From: Paenibacillus donghaensis
Lineage (GTDB): Bacteria; Bacillota; Bacilli; Paenibacillales; Paenibacillaceae
Length of the DNA: 64,000 nucleotides
Reading direction: 5' to 3'
NCBI RefSeq assembly: GCF_002192415.1
Contig: NZ_CP021780.1
Location: 8,122,001 to 8,186,000, forward strand
Every line of letters starts with the position of its first letter. Positions within the stretch are counted from its first letter, which is position 1. Both the position numbers and the translations under genes were made by a program. The notes beneath the pieces are model-generated. The model had not been told where the DNA came from. It did not search any database and saw nothing but the letters and a program-made list of their open reading frames with translations. This document shows, piece after piece, positions 3,428 through 61,791 of the stretch.

Positions 3428-3640
3428 TTAGTTGCAAAAGTGCATCTAATTAGCCGATTTTTTCCGTTTTGGAGCAAATAGTTGCAAAAAGGCACTTAAT
3501 TCCGGCGTTTGAGCGTAGAAGACTTGATTTACTTGAAATTAGTTGCAATATCGCACTTAATCGCCTCCTGACAGTGGTTTCAGCTGAAATTAGTTGCACT
3601 TTCGCATCTATTTGCTCCGAACGTGCCAGGGCAACCTTCT
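3428..3640 (-). repeat. Four-palindrome intergenic array, TTGCA type, copy 1 (reverse orientation)
   Basis: Four 23-bp near-palindromes with arms TTAGTTGCA/TGCANCTAA start at 3428, 3478, 3539 and 3590 (spacing 50, 61, 51 bp). Linkers are also conserved: the reverse complement contains GTTGCCCTGG, TTCGGAG and CTCCAAAAC segments shared with the copies at 25992 and 61582. This accounts for most of the 560 bp gap between the genes at 3338 and 3897. No ORF is plausible here. Confidence 0.85.
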
Positions 3641-12248: not shown

Positions 12249-12455
12249 GCGAATAAAAATAAGGGATAAATCCCGTAAATTTAGCGAGTGGAGGCACATT
12301 CGAGTAAAAATAAGGGATAAATCCCTTAAATTCAGCGCGCTGGGCTACATTCGAGTAAAAGTAAGGGATAAATGTCATAAATTTAGCGAGTGGAGGCACA
12401 TCCGAGTAAAAATAAGGGAAATACCCCCTAAATTTAGCGCACCGGCCCACTCCCA
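12249..12455. repeat. Four 51-bp tandem units, each with a short palindrome
   Basis: The motif (G/A)ANTAAAANTAAGGG starts at 12251, 12302, 12353 and 12404, exactly 51 bp apart. Each unit contains an AAGGGAT-AA-ATCCCTT-type palindrome (best in unit 2) followed by TAAATTTAGCG. Because 51 is a multiple of three, an open frame runs through on both strands; I regard those frames as by-products. The array fills the gap between the GH94-GNAT terminator and the Wadjet operon. Confidence 0.85.
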
Positions 12456-15393: not shown

Positions 15394-16060
15394 ACAGCAT
15401 ACAGACGCCAACATCAATCCTCTCCACGTCATGCAGTCCCTGAAAGGAATGCTGAGCGGGGACGAGGAGCTGGTCTTTATGAATATTCTATTCTCGTCTT
15501 CTGCGACGATACGTGCCGGCAATTTTGGCCTGTCCCGCAAGGAAGTCGAGAAGCAGCTGCGGATCGGGGAGCAGGATGAGCGTTTCTTTTCTTTTATACA
15601 ACGTGTGAACCAGGCCGTGAGCCGGTATTTCCAGATTATCTATGATGAGCGGCGCGACCAGGTGGTTGCCATGATGAGGGTGCCGTCCCGAACCGCCCGC
15701 AGTACACTGTCGAAGGAGAGCCTGGCGATATTGCTCTTTATGTTCTATCAGCAGGAGGTGCTGCAGCATGACTTCACGCTGTTCGATCAGCTGCTGGCTG
15801 CGTTCGGGCACGAGACCACCAAGGCGAATCAGCGGATGCTGCTGAACCTGGACCAGCTGCGGAAGATCGGGGCGCTTGAGGAATACGAGACCAACTCTCC
15901 GGAGAAGGCTTATCAACTGACCGCGATCGGCACCCATATGTTCTCGGACTCTTTTCTGCGGCGTACGGTTGAATTCAGCCAGTCCAATCAATTGAACAAG
16001 GAAGAAGTGCTGAAGTTCTTCAAACGGTACAATCTCTACCAGGAAGGAGCTGGCGAATAA
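15386..16060 (+). CDS. jetB: Wadjet defence protein JetB (MukE-like, DUF4194)
   Basis: 224 residues from ATG 15386 (AAGGGAGTGAAGAAC upstream), overlapping the jetA stop by 8 bp. The open frame extends further upstream inside jetA without a matching signal, so the internal ATG was chosen. The protein has the winged-helix pattern of MukE/DUF4194 proteins (FGLSRKEVEKQLRIGEQDERFFSFIQRVNQAVSRYFQIIYDERRDQVVAMM; LNLDQLRKIGALEEYETNSPEKAYQLTAIGTHMF). In the complex it binds the kleisin subunit. Confidence 0.82.
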   Translation: MTEQHTDANINPLHVMQSLKGMLSGDEELVFMNILFSSSATIRAGNFGLSRKEVEKQLRIGEQDERFFSFIQRVNQAVSRYFQIIYDERRDQVVAMMRVPSRTARSTLSKESLAILLFMFYQQEVLQHDFTLFDQLLAAFGHETTKANQRMLLNLDQLRKIGALEEYETNSPEKAYQLTAIGTHMFSDSFLRRTVEFSQSNQLNKEEVLKFFKRYNLYQEGAGE

Positions 16061-16062
16061 CG

Positions 16063-19000
16063 ATGATCCCCTGGAAAATGTGGTTCAGCGGCATCCGCGA
16101 CTACGCACCGACGTATATGGATCTGTCCGGACAGGAGGAGCATGTGCTGATTACCGGGCCCAACGGAGCAGGCAAATCGACTATCACCTATTGCATGGGA
16201 GCTGTGCTCTACTCCTCCAAGGTGGAGCTGGAGGGTCTGCGCTCCCGCAATCTGGCGGCCGATGAGCCGTGGAAGGCGCAGATTCGCCTGCTGTTCAAGA
16301 ACGGCGGCCGTCTGCGGATCGATGCACCCGATTATATTGAATTCTCCCTGCGGGTCCTTCAGGAGCCGGGACAACCCGTCAAGAAGGAGTTCGTAGTCTC
16401 TTCTGGCGATGACCCGGAGTCGTGGGACGGGCAGACCCGGTATACATCCGGTGACCGCCAGTATAATTTCACCTCCTACAAGCAGGACTTGCAGTACAAA
16501 TACAAGATTGACCCCGACCTCTTCTACCTGATCTGGTATCAGCAGGAGGTCAACCAGTTCGCCGTGATGCATCCCGAGGAACGGTTTCGGATCTTCGCGG
16601 AGATGCACGGGATTGATCAGGTACAGCGCAACTGGGAGGAGAGCCTGGAGAAGCTGAAGGATACCCAGGAGACCTTGCGCAGTGCCGAGATCAACGTAGC
16701 CAACAAGAAGCAGCTGGTCAAGATCAAGAAATCTGATCTGGAACGCTACGAGGATAACCGCAGGCGTCTGGTAGAGGGCGGGCAGCTGTATGCCAGGTCT
16801 TTGCTTCAGCTGGAGGCGTATTATAACCGGGAACAGGAGAGCCAGCAGCGGCTGATGGAGCAGCTGGATCTGGATCTGGAGCTGCAGCAGGAACAGATCG
16901 CTGAAGTGAAGCAGCAGGAGCATGAGTTGGGTATACAGCTGGAAGACACGAAGCAGCAGATTGAACAGCAGCGGTTGGAGCTGGGCGAAGTGGAGGAGCA
17001 GTTGCATGTGCTGGACCAGATCATCCAGGAGACCAAAACGGCCATAGCCGAGCTGGAGCTTGAACTACAGCAGGTGAACAAGGAGAAGGAGCGGATTACG
17101 CGCACCGATGCCGAGGTGGAACACGGACTGGAGACAGTAGCTGCCGAGCTTGCAGCGGCTGACCGTCAGCGTGCGGAGCTGCGATCCGTACTTGACCAGA
17201 GCCGTATTCAGGAGGAACAGCACCGAAGAACGATCTATAAGCTGGAGAATACCATTGAACAGGAATATGAGCAGGAGACTGTCCATCAGTCGCGGCTACG
17301 TGAATATAATGGCAGTTATGCGGTCCAGCAAGAGCTGGACAGGCTGGACCGTTCGCTCCAGCAGGCCAAGGATCACAAGCATGAGTATGTTAACAGCATT
17401 AAGCAGCTGCGTGAGGAGCTTGCCCGGCTGCAGGAGCAACGGGACTGGTCCAGCCGGCAGAGCGAATCCCTGGCTCTGCTCTCTTCGTCCCGGATCAAGG
17501 CTTACCCGCTCAGTGAGCTGGTAGAGCTGGACAGAAGCGCTCAGGCGAAGGAAGAAGAACGGTTTAATGCAATTAAATATACCGTATTCTTTGATGGGAT
17601 CCGCATGGTTCCGCCGAATGATCTCTATCACGTTCCGCTGCGCAAGGTGGTGCCCGAGCGCTCCGTGACGGAGCTGCCGGAGCTTCAGCTGCGAGTGAAG
17701 GAAGACGTGTCTGAGGACATGCTGCCCCATGCCATGAAAGCCCTATGGTGGGTGGGAGAGTTCTTCAAGGCCGTAGATCCGCGAATTGAAGACAGTGTGC
17801 TTGTGGATCGGATGGGGCTGCGCGGCCCGCAGGAGGCGGCCCGTTATATTCTGAGTGCCCGCGCATTGCTCGCCCGCAAGGATCAGATCTCCGAGCTGAT
17901 CGGCAGCCTGGCAGATAAGACGGCCGAACTGGAGGTGTCGATCCTGCGGGACACCAAACGTCTGCAGGAGCTGAATAGTGTAATCCAGCTGGTGCGTGAA
18001 GCAGAGGCATTCCGCACCAAGGAACATGAGCGGGTCAGCCGCAGGCTGAAGCTGAAGCAGGAGCAGACCGCGCTGGAGGAGTTGCTGAAGCAGATTCAGG
18101 CCCTGGAGGAATCCAGGGAAACCCTGCTGAAGCAACATCTGGAGCTTGAGCATCTGCAGCGTGCACTGCAGCGGGAAGCCGAATTCTACGTGCGGCTGGG
18201 ACAGCAGAAGGCGAAATACGAGGAGCTTGGGGGGAAGCAGCAGGAGCTGCAGAATCTTAAGGGCCAGGTCCGCAAGCTGCGGCAGCAGCGGGAGACTGGT
18301 GAAGAGGGGCTGAACCAGGCCGAGCGGCTGCTGCGGCGCCAGGAGCATGAGCTGCTGGAGAATGAATACCGGCTGGGACAGGAGCGGCGCAAGCTGGAGC
18401 AGATCGGAAACCAGCTGCAGACGGCGGCGGATGTGCTGGAGAATGCCCAGGGAGAGCGGGTAGGCTGTCTGAGGGAGATTGAGGATTTCCAGCAGCTCCA
18501 TGCCGCTCTATATAATGAAGCTGAGGCCGAGGCCGCAGCCGATGACCTGCCGCGCCTGTCTCTGCCGCAGATAAGGACAGCGCTGGATAAGGGCCAAACC
18601 GAGTTCAATAATGCGCGGAATGAGTCAGGCATTGATCCGGCTGCGCCTGATAACTACAAGGTCATTGAAGCGGAGTTTAGCCGCATTCAGGAGGATTACA
18701 AGCGGACGGAGATCCTCTTCGAGCAGAACCAGGAGCGGACACAGCAGCTGAAGGATCAGCTGGAGACGACGATTAATATGCGGGTGCTGGAGATTCTGCA
18801 GAACTTCCGGTCCTATATGAGCCTGTTTCAATTCGAAGGTGAAATTGATTGGGATTACCATGAAGACCGCCGGGGGCGGACACATTTCAATCTCTATATC
18901 AAAGCCCGTAAGGAAGGACATCGCGGAACACTGGAGGATGTGAGCCTCAAGGCACGAGGTGGCAGAGTAGGTAAGGGGGTATCCGGGGGCGAAGAATCAC

Positions 19001-25951: not shown

Positions 25952-25991
25952 ACTATTAGTTACTGCTTAGGATTTAGCCAGGATTTAGAGT

Positions 25992-26200
25992 GTTGCCCTG
26001 GAACCTTCGGAGTAATTAGATGCGAAACTGCAACTAATCTCCGCCGAAATACCCATTTCAGGATAATAAGTGCATATCTGCAACTAAATTCAAGTAAAGC
26101 AAGCTTATTACGCTCAAAATCCTAAATTAGGTGCGTTTTCGCACTTATTTCCTCCAAAACAGAAAAAAACGGCGAAATAGATGCAGTTTCGCAACTAATT
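25992..26200 (+). repeat. Four-palindrome intergenic array, TTGCA type, copy 2
   Basis: Near-palindromes with TTAGNTGC/GCANCTAA-type arms start at 26016, 26066, 26127 and 26177 (spacing 50, 61, 50 bp). Leading GTTGCCCTGG and internal CTCCAAAAC linkers match copies 1 and 3. The array is bracketed by the two CTTAAG hairpin elements. No gene in this stretch. Confidence 0.85.
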
Positions 26201-26223
26201 CTTTGGACTGGAGATATGAGACT

Positions 26224-26327
26224 CTATAAGATGAACTTAAGAATGAAACGGTGGAGTTGTCAGAATGCCTGGTGCATAGGGCTACCCGGACCACTCGAAT
26301 ATAACATTCTTAAGTTCACGTTCTATC
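26224..26327. repeat. Hairpin element with CTTAAG arms, copy 2
   Basis: Same terminal arms as the copy at 25850 (GAACTTAAGAATG / CATTCTTAAGTTC) and the shared core GTGGAGTTGTCAGAA and CATAGGGCT. The inner arms differ from copy 1 but still pair (GAGTTGTC with GACCACTC, one mismatch), which suggests the fold is maintained. Confidence 0.7.
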
Positions 26328-26440
26328 TCATGGAACTGAATCTGAAGTGTTCTTATCCTACGGAGTCCTAAGTAGTAACAACTATTAAGCATTATAAACC
26401 TTTTGCAGCGGCTTCCTCTGTTAATTGCTTCAAGGGTAGA

Positions 26441-47332: not shown

Positions 47333-47917
47333 ATGCCAACTCAAGAGTTAAAGCCGCAGTTTGAACAATACCTGCAGCTGTCTGCCGGGCTGCGGCCGGA
47401 GTATCCGGGCAGTCTGGGGGCAGGGAATTTAGATGCAATCAGGGAGGCTGTTGGTTCTTCGACTGAACTTCCGGCGCTGCTGGAGGCCGTATATAGTCTG
47501 GTTTCGGGAACGGGAAGTGAGGAGGAAGAACCCAGTCTGGTCGAATTCATTCCGGGATACCGGCTGATCCATGTCGGTGAATACGCGGAGCAGATACAGG
47601 TGTTGGCAGGTATTCTGGAGGACAAAGGTTACAACGGCGGCGGCACCGTGCTCCCGCTCCTGACCAACTATGGCAGTGACTTCATCTGCTACTTCCGTTC
47701 TGCGGACGGCGAGGAGCGGGTGTGCGATTTGCTCCATGACTTCGGCGACCTCGCAGTCATGTATGACTCCCCTGCAAAGTTCCTGGAGACCTTGTGTGAA
47801 TTCTACAAGCAGGAGGTCTATTTCCTTGATGAAGACGGATACCTCGACTGCGATCTGGTCCTTGAAGGGGAAGTGGGCGCGGCATTCAACCCTGCTGCGA
47901 CTTATTGGGCGGAGTAG
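47333..47917 (+). CDS. SMI1/KNR4 (SUKH)-family protein
   Basis: 194 residues from ATG 47333 (AAAGGATG upstream). IPGYRLIHVGEYAEQIQVLAGILEDKGY, LLTNYGSDFICYFRSADGEERVCDLLHDFGDLAVMYDSPAKFLETLCEFYKQEVYFLDEDG fit the SUKH fold. Many SUKH proteins are immunity proteins to nuclease toxins; no toxin gene is visible nearby, so an orphan immunity or regulatory role is possible. It follows the STM3941-like gene by 29 bp, probably one transcript. Confidence 0.75.
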   Translation: MPTQELKPQFEQYLQLSAGLRPEYPGSLGAGNLDAIREAVGSSTELPALLEAVYSLVSGTGSEEEEPSLVEFIPGYRLIHVGEYAEQIQVLAGILEDKGYNGGGTVLPLLTNYGSDFICYFRSADGEERVCDLLHDFGDLAVMYDSPAKFLETLCEFYKQEVYFLDEDGYLDCDLVLEGEVGAAFNPAATYWAE

Positions 47918-47959
47918 GTAACGGGTCAGGCTGAGATAATAGCTGTCGGTCAAAAAGTA

Positions 47960-47985
47960 GAGGCAGCCCTGGGGGCTGCCTCTTT
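47960..47985 (+). terminator. Terminator
   Basis: GAGGCAGCC / GGCTGCCTC stem with a short loop, followed by TTTA. Ends the STM3941/SUKH transcript. Confidence 0.7.
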
Positions 47986-48098
47986 AGGTTGGAGTAGTTA
48001 ATTGAACAATGTGGCTTTGTAGATTGATGTAGCTGTGGTGCTCGCTGGAGCCATTCCACGCGAGCTTCTGAGCGGCGGAGCGTCAGGTCCTGCGGACT

Positions 48099-48283
48099 AA
48101 CTGTATTTCGTACAGCTATTTCAGGTGGAATCACCGCCAAAATGACTTTAGTTGTATTTCGTACAGTTATTATTGGCCTAAACACTGTTTTGGGCTTAAA
48201 CGGCAACTTTTAGATGTACGAAATACAGTTATCTCTCTCTGAACGGCCAAATGTGTTGTTTTAATTGTACGAAATACAGTTAC
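48099..48283. repeat. Four-palindrome intergenic array, GTATTTCGTAC type
   Basis: GTATTTCGTAC at 48103 and 48154, and its reverse complement GTACGAAATAC at 48216 and 48267, each within an AACTGTATTTCGTACAGTTAT-like palindrome. Spacing is 51, 62, 51 bp: nearly the spacing of the TTGCA arrays although the unit sequence is unrelated. No gene in this stretch. Confidence 0.85.
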
Positions 48284-48290
48284 AGTAACC

Positions 48291-48345
48291 TGTGACCCTG
48301 TGACCCTGTGACCCTGTGACCCTGTGACTATGTGACCCTGTGACC
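48291..48345. repeat. 8-bp tandem repeat (TGTGACCC)
   Basis: Seven near-perfect copies of TGTGACCC, one altered to TGTGACTA, directly after the four-palindrome array and 50 bp from the 3' end of the acyl-CoA synthetase gene. Confidence 0.9.
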
Positions 48346-48395
48346 AGCGATAAGCCGCCCGGCGACTAGAGGTTTCCTACTGTGCGAGCATCCAC

Positions 48396-49988
48396 TTAGG
48401 ATTCCCGCGCGGCGCGGTTCTCCTGCTCGCGCAGCTCGACTCTGCGGATTTTGCCGGAGGCTGTTTTCGGCAGATCGGCGATGAAATCGATTTTGCGCGG
48501 ATATTTGTAAGGAGCTGTCCACTCTTTCACATGGTTCTGCAGCTCTTTGGCCAGCTTAGGGGTACCTTCAACCTCATCCTTAAGCACGACAAAAGCCTTG
48601 ACGATGTGGCCGCGAATTTCATCCGGGCTGGCAACAACGGCACATTCCTTGACCGAAGCATGCTTCATCAGCGCTTCTTCCACTTCAAACGGTCCAATGG
48701 TATAGCCGGAGCTGATGATAATATCGTCGCCGCGCCCCTCGAACCAGAAGTAGCCGTCCTCATCCTTGCTTGCACGGTCGCCGGTAACGAAGAAGTCCCC
48801 GTGCGAGCAGTTGGCTTTGCGCTCAGGGTCTTTGTAATAAGTATGGAATAGGGCCGGCATGCTCAGGTGCACGGCAATATCACCGACGATTCCCGGAGCC
48901 AGCGGCAGGCCTTCATCGTCCACCACCTCAACCAGACCGGGGGCGATCGATTTGCCCATCGAGCCAATGCGGATCGGCATATCCTTGAGCGTTCCGATAA
49001 TCAGCGTGCTCTCCGTCTGGCCGTAGCCGTCGCGGATCGTCAGGTCGAAGTGGCGCTGGAAGGTGTTGATGACCTCCTGGTTAAGCGGTTCGCCGGCGGA
49101 TACCGCGCAGCGCAGCCGGGACAGGTCGTAATGCGGCAAGCCTTCTGTTTTGGCCATAAGACGGTATTCGGTAGGCGTGCAGCAGAGGACCTGGATGCCA
49201 TGATCCTGCAGCAGCTGCAAATAACGTTTCGGATGAAAAGCTCCGTTATACACGAAGCCGGTAGCTCCGTTTCCAAGCACGGTCAGGAAAGGACTCCAGA
49301 TCCATTTCTGCCAGCCGGGTGCGGCGGTTGCCCAGACGGTATCCGATTCACGGATATCCAGCCACTGGGATGAAACGATCCGCAGGTGGGCATAAGCCCA
49401 GCCATGGCTGTGAACCACTGCCTTCGGGTTGCCCGTAGTGCCGGAGGTATAAGCCAGGATGGCGATATCGTCACGGCGTGTCTGCACGGAGGTGAAGTGA
49501 TCCGGCTGCCTTGCCATCAGCTCCTCCAGATCGAGCCAGCCTTCCGAAACGGGCTGATCTTCGGCAACAGCGATACGGAAATCCAGCGATGGCAGATCAT
49601 CATCGATTCTCTCCACCTCATGGGCAATCTTGGACCAGGCAATGACCGCCCGCGCCTCCGAGTGGCGCAGCCGGTAAGCCAGGTCTTTGGCACGCAGCAT
49701 CTCCGAGGAGGGGATAATTGCCAGTCCCAGCTTCAGGCAAGCGATGTAGATGGCGTAGGTAATAATTCTGCGTGGTACCATGACGAGCACCTTATCGCCC
49801 TGGCGAAGGCCAAGGGCCGCGAGCCCTCCGGCCAGCCGGTTGGCCTGCTGCAATAAGCCCCCGTAGCTGATCAGCTCGCACTGATCCTTGTCGTCCACAA
49901 ACTTAAGCGCAGTCTTCTCTGAAGGATGCTGCTCCATTTCCGAGACAAGATTGTAATATTCAGGTGCAATCCATTGCTGATTGTCCAT
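48396..49988 (-). CDS. AMP-forming acyl-CoA synthetase (acetyl/medium-chain type)
   Basis: 530 residues, a full-length ANL-superfamily enzyme. AMP-binding motifs: AYTSGTTGNPKAVVHSHGW (P-loop), DGYGQTESTLIIG (A5) and GDRASKDEDGYFWFEGRGDDIIISSGYTIGPFEVEEAL (A7-A8). The catalytic Lys is in LPKTASGKIRRVEL. It activates a carboxylic acid as acyl-AMP and then acyl-CoA; chain length is not readable, but the best likeness is to AcsM/YtcI-like enzymes. AGGAGAGG precedes the ATG. Monocistronic on the minus strand, with an operator-like inverted repeat upstream. Confidence 0.88.
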   Translation of the reverse strand: MDNQQWIAPEYYNLVSEMEQHPSEKTALKFVDDKDQCELISYGGLLQQANRLAGGLAALGLRQGDKVLVMVPRRIITYAIYIACLKLGLAIIPSSEMLRAKDLAYRLRHSEARAVIAWSKIAHEVERIDDDLPSLDFRIAVAEDQPVSEGWLDLEELMARQPDHFTSVQTRRDDIAILAYTSGTTGNPKAVVHSHGWAYAHLRIVSSQWLDIRESDTVWATAAPGWQKWIWSPFLTVLGNGATGFVYNGAFHPKRYLQLLQDHGIQVLCCTPTEYRLMAKTEGLPHYDLSRLRCAVSAGEPLNQEVINTFQRHFDLTIRDGYGQTESTLIIGTLKDMPIRIGSMGKSIAPGLVEVVDDEGLPLAPGIVGDIAVHLSMPALFHTYYKDPERKANCSHGDFFVTGDRASKDEDGYFWFEGRGDDIIISSGYTIGPFEVEEALMKHASVKECAVVASPDEIRGHIVKAFVVLKDEVEGTPKLAKELQNHVKEWTAPYKYPRKIDFIADLPKTASGKIRRVELREQENRAARES

Positions 49989-61581: not shown

Positions 61582-61791
61582 ATTGCTCTGGAACGTTCAG
61601 AGTAAATTAGATGCAGAACTGCAACTAATTTCAGTCGAATCGTGAGAAATCAGGTGATTAAGTGCGATAATGCAACTAATTCTGAGTAAATCGAGATTAT
61701 TATGTTCAAAAGCCGAAATTAGATGCATTTCTGCACTTATTTCCTCCAAAACGGAGAAAAAACACCATTTAGATGCATATTCGCAACTAAA
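61582..61791 (+). repeat. Four-palindrome intergenic array, TTGCA type, copy 3
   Basis: Palindromic units start at 61607, 61658, 61719 and 61769 (spacing 51, 61, 50 bp), with leading ATTGCTCTGG and internal CTCCAAAAC linkers shared with the copies at 3428 and 25992. The remaining gap to 62204 holds a 15-bp tandem repeat (62061) and otherwise no recognisable feature. Confidence 0.85.

Follow-up and report, generated by a model that had tools for sequence, protein, structure and literature searches.

Intergenic arrays of four dyads with a common spacing and several unit sequences in Paenibacillus donghaensis and related genomes

DNA-wrapping operators of multimeric regulators, e.g. those of the Lrp/AsnC octamers, arrange a series of dimer sites in phase with the helix along bent DNA and belong to single genes. 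MITEs are non-coding, dispersed and two-fold at their ends. BIME/REP repeats are short dispersed intergenic palindromes in regular groups, with several classes per genus, and REPs are described as targets of IS elements in the accessible part of PMC1525189. For E. coli gyrase, the accessible part of PMC6379681 gives a motif of 130 bp with a phased 10-bp variation in G/C. The full text of PMC3733652 contains neither of the words Paenibacillus and Firmicutes, and PMC2817692 does not contain Paenibacillus. No account of the four-dyad elements described below was found among the open-access papers reached by the searches, where their unit words turned up in three unrelated papers only.

The window analyzed here is a stretch of 64,000 nucleotides of the P. 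donghaensis chromosome, at 8122001-8186000 of a single contig of 8.54 Mb. The array at 48098-48282 of this window belongs to a family of non-coding copies of about 185 bases, numerous and scattered in Paenibacillus-type chromosomes, which are exact in geometry and differ in sequence by class and species. We rate the arrays as a dispersed intergenic repeat, a known kind of element, in a new form.

The array at 48098-48282 and the unit classes of its genome

The 11-mer GTATTTCGTAC was found exactly at 48103 and 48154 on the + strand and at 48216 and 48267 on the − strand. The spacing is therefore 51/62/51 and units 3 and 4 are inverted, just as the first-pass annotation had described four units of which the second pair is the inverse of the first. 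The array consists of four imperfect 21-bp dyads with separators of 30, 41 and 30 bp. Read on the + strand, these are dyad 1 (class B, forward, + strand, 48098-48118), TAACTGTATTTCGTACAGCTA; dyad 2 (forward, + strand, 48149-48169), TAGTTGTATTTCGTACAGTTA; dyad 3 (reverse orientation, − strand, 48211-48231), TAGATGTACGAAATACAGTTA; and dyad 4 (reverse orientation, − strand, 48262-48282), TAATTGTACGAAATACAGTTA. Between them lie spacer 1 (30 bp, 48119-48148), with the A/T patches about every 10 bp of class B spacers, the central spacer (41 bp, 48170-48210), with phased A/T patches and the two-fold axis of the layout near 48190, and spacer 3 (30 bp, 48232-48261). Class B homology among the copies of the window's genome typically stops at the positions matching 48098 and 48282. 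The array is flanked by one ORF that ends at 47917 and by a convergent one that ends at 48396; from its motifs, the latter looks acyl-CoA synthetase-like. An 11-bp inverted repeat at 47959-47983 (+ strand) looks by eye like a terminator of the upstream gene, with the array beyond it, and an 8-bp tandem repeat, (CCTGTGAC)n, at 48289-48345 (+ strand) directly adjoins the array. Of 37 arrays, 9 had a short tandem repeat no more than 350 bp away, compared with 294 of 3000 background noncoding places, which makes such repeats about 2.5 times as frequent beside arrays.

Genome-wide, 12 + 19 exact matches to GTATTTCGTAC were counted, against 1 + 2 for the reversed control. In 864 kb, a four-unit motif scan returned 25 matches of class A, a few of them partial or overlapping, and 3 of class B; in shuffled sequence, about half of 864 kb, it returned none. 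Chance is therefore ruled out for the array. At the 20 other loci of the window's genome (G000) carrying the 11-mer, the array layout was seen in 16 (15 with four dyads, 1 with three), and in 4 the word stood alone. An oriented four-unit scan of the 11-mer loci and the 864 kb yielded 18 class B arrays including that of the window, two of these being the same locus counted twice. The statistics on this genome were drawn from 864 kb out of its 8.54 Mb, together with targeted loci. The window array had no match in plasmids and phages; a class B pair was present in three viral contigs.

The window also contains class A (TTGCA) four-dyad arrays at 3428-3611 (+ strand, 50/61/51), 26016-26198 (+ strand, 50/61/50) and 61607-61790 (− strand, 51/61/50), the second within a 421-bp TIR element (25959-26379) flanked by an 8-bp target duplication, AACTATTA. 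The spacings 50/61/51 and 51/61/50 represent a single asymmetric class A element in two orientations (9 + 9 copies, alignable in one orientation). A related tandem array at 12254-12436 (+ strand) has four dyads (AAGGGATAAATCCC) in a single direction at a constant 51 bp. Near-perfect dyads of further classes with a 51-bp period were seen there and at L161 (about 15600-16250), L149 (12345) and L221 (2190-2850), where L221 alternates spacings of 51 and about 60 bp and the others are tandem at 51/51/51. Such periodic arrays are apparently a sister layout of the four-dyad arrays.

Sequence-blind detection distinguished at least five unit classes in the window's genome, mostly at 50-51/61-62/50-51. 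Over all genomes compared, the unit words are TTAGTTGC.. (A), TAACTGTATTTCGTACA.. (B), TA.CGGAC.. (C), CCTGCAAA.. (D) and TTAGGGAA.. (E). The sequence-blind scan of 864 kb, which scores similarity among the four units only and had a shuffled maximum of 69, so that most matches below 76 are noise, found classes A, B, C, D and E-like (TATAGGGAA..) together with tandem classes. Several class C arrays of G000 have left-pair cores that differ from the right-pair cores. The class B unit had been called unrelated in sequence to the TTGCA unit, which is slightly too strong: by eye, both units have TA-R-N-TG half-sites (TTAGWTGC and TARNTGYA), with differing cores and spacers.

Spacing and spacer phasing across classes and genomes

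In motif scans that admitted solely outer spacings of 49-52 and middle spacings of 60-63, class A was at 50/61/51 in either orientation in 42 of 51 arrays, class B at 51/62/51 in 36 of 44, class C at 50/62/50 in 40 of 52, class E at 51/62/51 in 6 of 7 and class D at 51/61/50 in 4 of 6. The total length, bounded by the same scans, was 162 bp in 42 of 51 class A, 164 bp in 36 of 44 class B and 162 bp in 41 of 52 class C arrays; for class A the case for a controlled length is weak, as the right flank up to the TIR is near-constant too (42-44 bp in 29 of 30), while the left flank varies from 13 to 172 bp. Autocorrelation of palindrome spacing on strict dyads was too insensitive. A sequence-blind scan across five genomes allowed wider ranges (outer 44-61, middle 52-77) and had a shuffled maximum of 73; matches scoring below the cut-off of 80, arrays cut at the ends of fetched stretches and exact duplicates were dropped. 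It can be seen that 64 of the 95 matches still fell at 49-52/60-63/49-52. The other 31 comprised 9 tandem arrays at about 51/51/51 and a remainder that included simple repeats, overlaps and class C arrays whose centre was misplaced because of weak palindromy. The commonest dyad-centre spacings were 51/62/51 (16), 51/61/50 (13) and 50/62/50 (11), followed by 50/61/51 (9), tandem 51/51/51 (6) and 50/61/50 (5). The proposal that the layout is kept and the unit sequence is not was thus supported: copies of classes A, B, C, D and E elsewhere keep near-identical spacing of the 50/61/50 type.

In relatives, with overlaps and simple repeats included, the wider-range sequence-blind scan gave 34 matches for G001 and 9 for G003 (400 kb each), and 6 for G007 and 1 for G012 (200 kb each). 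Outside the family, G092 has class B-like arrays with 51-bp spacing, and in 40 kb of G019 arrays of 51-bp pairs with a middle of about 62 were registered by hand. A class B-like array of P. kobensis (locus L010, about 598-795) was registered by hand at 51/74/52, so that its centre is longer by about one helical turn.

The distribution of the classes was followed with pair patterns. These derive from the classes seen here and would miss others elsewhere, and their strand counts are not independent, since a single array may yield a forward and a reverse match. Among 31 same-genus genomes, the class A pattern had 219 + 217 matches in G000, one in G174 and zero in the other 29, i.e. class A is nearly private to the window's genome. 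Class C was found in 20 of the 31 (maximum 157 + 160, in G001), class B in 16 (maximum 86 + 90, in G003) and class E only in G001 (27 + 29) and G007 (23 + 21). Reversed-pattern controls gave zero in all 31, and at least 9 genomes, e.g. G002, G004, G005, G006 and G008, had no match to any of the four patterns. In a draw of 149 genomes from the order, class B pairs were present in 42, including all 17 same-genus ones, with controls non-zero only in G090 and G112. Pairs of GTATTTCGTAC 49-53 bp apart were found in ten stretches of the genome collection, six of them Paenibacillus records. Each class has its own consensus within a genome, and the sets of classes differ among genomes.

Mean pairwise identity among 17 class B arrays was 82% in the dyads, 42% in the spacers and 26% in the flanks, the shuffled-spacer expectation being 26%. 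In the spacers of these arrays, A/T dinucleotides peaked about every 10 bp (65-100% of copies at peaks, 0-20% in troughs). In the flanks they ranged from 0 to 47% without waves over 29 positions per side, the patches ending at the outer dyads. The best A/T period in class B was 10.0, equalled by none of 1000 rotations; a weaker peak at 8.5 may stem from dyad masking. Similar A/T profiles were obtained with classes A, B, C, D and E (n = 41, 36, 40, 4 and 6); the profiles of A, D and E owe something to common descent. All 30 between-class correlations of spacer profiles were positive (r 0.37-0.86), and 0 to 7 of 23 or 33 rotations reached the in-phase correlation because the profile is periodic. 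Phased spacers are what bending or wrapping round a protein complex predicts, and wrapping itself is inferred from them.

We consider it about two-thirds probable that the four-dyad array is an intergenic, non-coding element, some 185 bp long and present in dispersed copies, that acts as double-stranded DNA. In this reading the DNA would be bent, with a sequence-specific protein bound to it as about four dimers, and the classes would be specificity variants. Each dyad would be the site of one protein dimer. The spacing 51/62/51 puts the dyads about 5, 6 and 5 helical turns apart and therefore on roughly one face of the helix. The A/T patches at each turn may ease bending or wrapping, so that four dimers could assemble into a compact two-fold complex. 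The unit classes would match proteins, probably related, that differ in recognition specificity, and each species has its own set. The complex may serve the host, e.g. by marking a domain boundary or managing supercoils where genes converge, or it may serve the element alone.

Genomic position, dispersal and the TIR element

It had also been proposed that the recognition sequence of the element has switched. At the locus of the window array, G003 has an array of another class (unit TAGCGGGAATTTTGCCCACTA) at exactly 51/62/51; in G001, G007, G009, G011, G012 and G018 the intergenic region is short and array-free, and in G015 it holds an inserted gene, with no array recognized by eye. At the locus of the class A array at 61607, G003 shares the downstream gene only and has a class C array. 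In a 400-kb stretch, 7 of 17 G000 arrays lay in intervals syntenic with G001, where G001 had an array of another class in 2, a short interval without array in 4 and one of 1.4 kb without array in 1. This mixed presence and absence indicates that arrays come and go. Arrays of G001 were found in 2 of the 7 intervals with a G000 array versus 3 of 41 without, which is not above chance (Fisher p = 0.15). Conserved position with a class switch was rejected on this overlap, and the proposed switch was not borne out despite the other-class arrays in matching intervals, although in-place switching is possible. The paralogous DNA-binding family that had been suggested to match the classes was not found among neighbour gene families or in a profile search with PF01797 only; apart from large families that are common anyway and duplicated copies of a single locus, no neighbour gene family recurred.

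A different reading takes the array as a MITE-like module, in which the dyad pair on each side holds the transposase sites of an inverted end, the layout is the geometry of a transpososome, and a transposase acting in trans spreads the copies. An FFRR order is indeed what two inverted ends, each with a pair of sites, would give. Homology extended past the outer dyads by a median of 0 bp in class B of G000 (98 pairs, quartiles 0-2) and in class C of G001 (86 pairs, quartiles −2 to 2), and by 3 bp in class B of G001 (12 pairs); thus the homologous unit of the B copies and of the G001 C copies is the array. For A, C of G000, D and E the medians were longer, at 10, 11.5, 20 and 7 bp, and the TIR element accounts for part of this. 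Four G092 copies that lie at unrelated places and are 88-93% identical over their six pairs have 186-195 bp in common, with 224 bp in one of the pairs. This shared length is close to that of an array, which indicates that the dispersing unit there is close to the array itself. On the other hand, no clear target duplication was detected at the ends of the arrays in three sets of 22, 27 and 22; the best of 704 length/offset combinations per set reached z 3.3-4.6 at odd offsets, with an identity of 0.31-0.45 versus 0.24-0.26 expected. The outer dyads are mutually inverted, but the entire array consists of inverted dyads, and two ends need no fixed 62-bp centre.

In G000 there is in addition a TIR element, GTTACTACTTAGG...CCTAAGTAGTAAC, with 8-bp target duplications, of which that at 25959-26379 of the window is an example. 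The terminus GTTACTACTTAGG had 532 genome-wide matches at up to 1 mismatch against 20 for the control (27 against 4 in 864 kb). Elements of 248-427 bp carry arrays of class A, C or E-like, a point in favour of the MITE-like module. Exactly at a class A dyad centre were 7 of 14 duplication-flanked TIR pairs, with 1 more doubtful, a share biased upward because loci L071-L100 were chosen as the best class A matches; in the unbiased 864 kb it was 0 of 4. No copy of the TIR element was present in 1.2 Mb from four array-bearing relatives, and no partner gene was found. The sole kilobase-scale TIR pair with a duplication in the sequence examined, at L131 (2.2 kb, 1 mismatch in the duplication, IS110-like transposase by eye), was rejected as an autonomous partner: L131 1828-4049 is probably a class C element that received an insertion. 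Taken together, these points make the MITE-like module the less likely reading.

In G092 an insertion breaks the L227 array near a dyad (by eye), from where L227 and L229 share 881 bp at 99.5%, possibly another dyad-directed insertion. Upstream of the class A arrays of L083, L089, L094, L096 and L098 a further dispersed repeat was noticed by eye, its ends resembling ATAGAACGTGAACTTAAGAATG...CATTCTTAAGTTCATCTTATA. A separate non-coding repeat of about 95 bp (L040 12753-12848) has more than 12 matches in G003 and a few in G001, and no Rfam match.

Topoisomerase, RNA and REP readings, and the meaning of the arrays

The arrays might instead be sites of DNA gyrase or another topoisomerase, since the phased A/T pattern would suit gyrase wrapping, as with E. 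coli BIME-2. As described in the accessible part of PMC6379681, the 130-bp gyrase motif of E. coli has in common with the arrays a phased 10-bp G/C variation over more than 100 bp. The arrays are intergenic, and among 75 placed at a gene-context score cut of 82 (27 overlapping a predicted ORF and 4 at ends excluded), 35 lay between convergent, 30 between tandem and 10 between divergent genes, against 65/88/46 for background long intergenic regions by crude ORF calling. However, gyrase leaves unexplained the four sequence-specific dyads, the class words and the period kept through the centre, and unlike the gyrase motif the arrays have four specific dyads, about 185 bp and class-specific words. 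We therefore regard this explanation as unlikely.

A structured non-coding RNA, or an attenuator built from long inverted repeats, is far less probable. Mismatches between dyad arms are of the type expected from two independent half-sites, e.g. the T.T mismatch of class A unit 1, TTAGTTGC/GCATCTAA. Where testable, there was no covariation within dyads. For the variable arm pairs of class B units 1-4, the paired fractions were 0.455, 0.432, 0.462 and 0.439 versus 0.433, 0.440, 0.492 and 0.433 in shuffles, and for class A unit 2 the value was 0.321 versus 0.353, units 1, 3 and 4 having no variable pairs. Class C arms paired at 0.39-0.45 over all positions; they had only 1 or 2 variable pairs, with values close to the shuffles in all units but unit 4 (0.423 versus 0.318, 20 of 500). 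The hairpin/RNA model was rejected because class B dyads lack internal covariation. In its favour, the whole-array folding energy had z of about −5 on either strand, but an inverted array would give likewise. Complementarity of units 1 and 4 exceeded that of shuffles in B (0 of 500 reached it) and A (1 of 500), as did that of 1 and 3 in B (4 of 500) and of 2 and 3 in C (9 of 500), whereas that of 2 and 3 in A and B did not. We read the long-range excess mostly as similarity of the units within an array, although part of it is also what a long-range fold would produce. Unlike left and right cores in several G000 class C arrays also argue against RNA, and neither a rigid length nor a 10-bp phase is a feature of RNA. 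Rfam covariance models at gathering cut-offs gave no match in the two stretches searched, window 47800-48500 and L040 12000-13400 (which holds a class A array).

Least credible is a REP/BIME-type repeat mobilized by RAYT (Y1) transposases: the arrays are extragenic, palindromic, multi-copy and of several classes per genome, and a PF01797 search found Y1 proteins in 5 of 8 genomes including G000 (5 matches), but there was no match in array-rich G001, on which ground this candidate was rejected, nor in G012 or G004, the class consensuses have by eye no GTAG or CGTC tag beside the palindrome, B dyads lack covariation, and C arms are only 39-45% paired.

The likeness to BIME/REP elements nevertheless extends to insertion: REPs are IS targets, according to the accessible part of PMC1525189, and some TIR elements likewise sit in array dyad centres. 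The arrays differ from BIME/REP in being untagged, in their fixed FFRR order and spacing, in their phased spacers and in the lack of dyad covariation where testable. They resemble MITEs in being non-coding, dispersed and two-fold at the ends, and some G000 copies lie inside a true TIR element; they differ in having no clear target duplication and one internal layout across sequence classes. Like the Lrp/AsnC-type wrapping operators, the arrays would combine several dimer sites in helical phase, here predicted ones, with bent DNA. In contrast to those operators of single genes, they are many dispersed copies in several sequence classes.

The preferred reading, DNA bound by about four dimers, can tentatively be taken further. 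The arrays may form a family of DNA elements defined by geometry, a nucleosome-like platform of 185 bp with four dimer sites on a helically phased, bendable scaffold, whose recognition words diversify with a family of wrapping proteins and give species-private sets of many chromosomal particles. The phasing of A/T gives a direct physical prediction, namely bending and binding on one face. Dispersed bacterial repeats are usually recognized by sequence, whereas these arrays are best recognized by geometry, with classes that vary among genomes, as though the same type of protein-DNA assembly had been built anew around different recognition words. If bound by protein, the arrays would constitute an abundant nucleoprotein structure of a large bacterial order. 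They would also offer a natural experiment on a multi-site complex that swaps its recognition word and keeps its shape.
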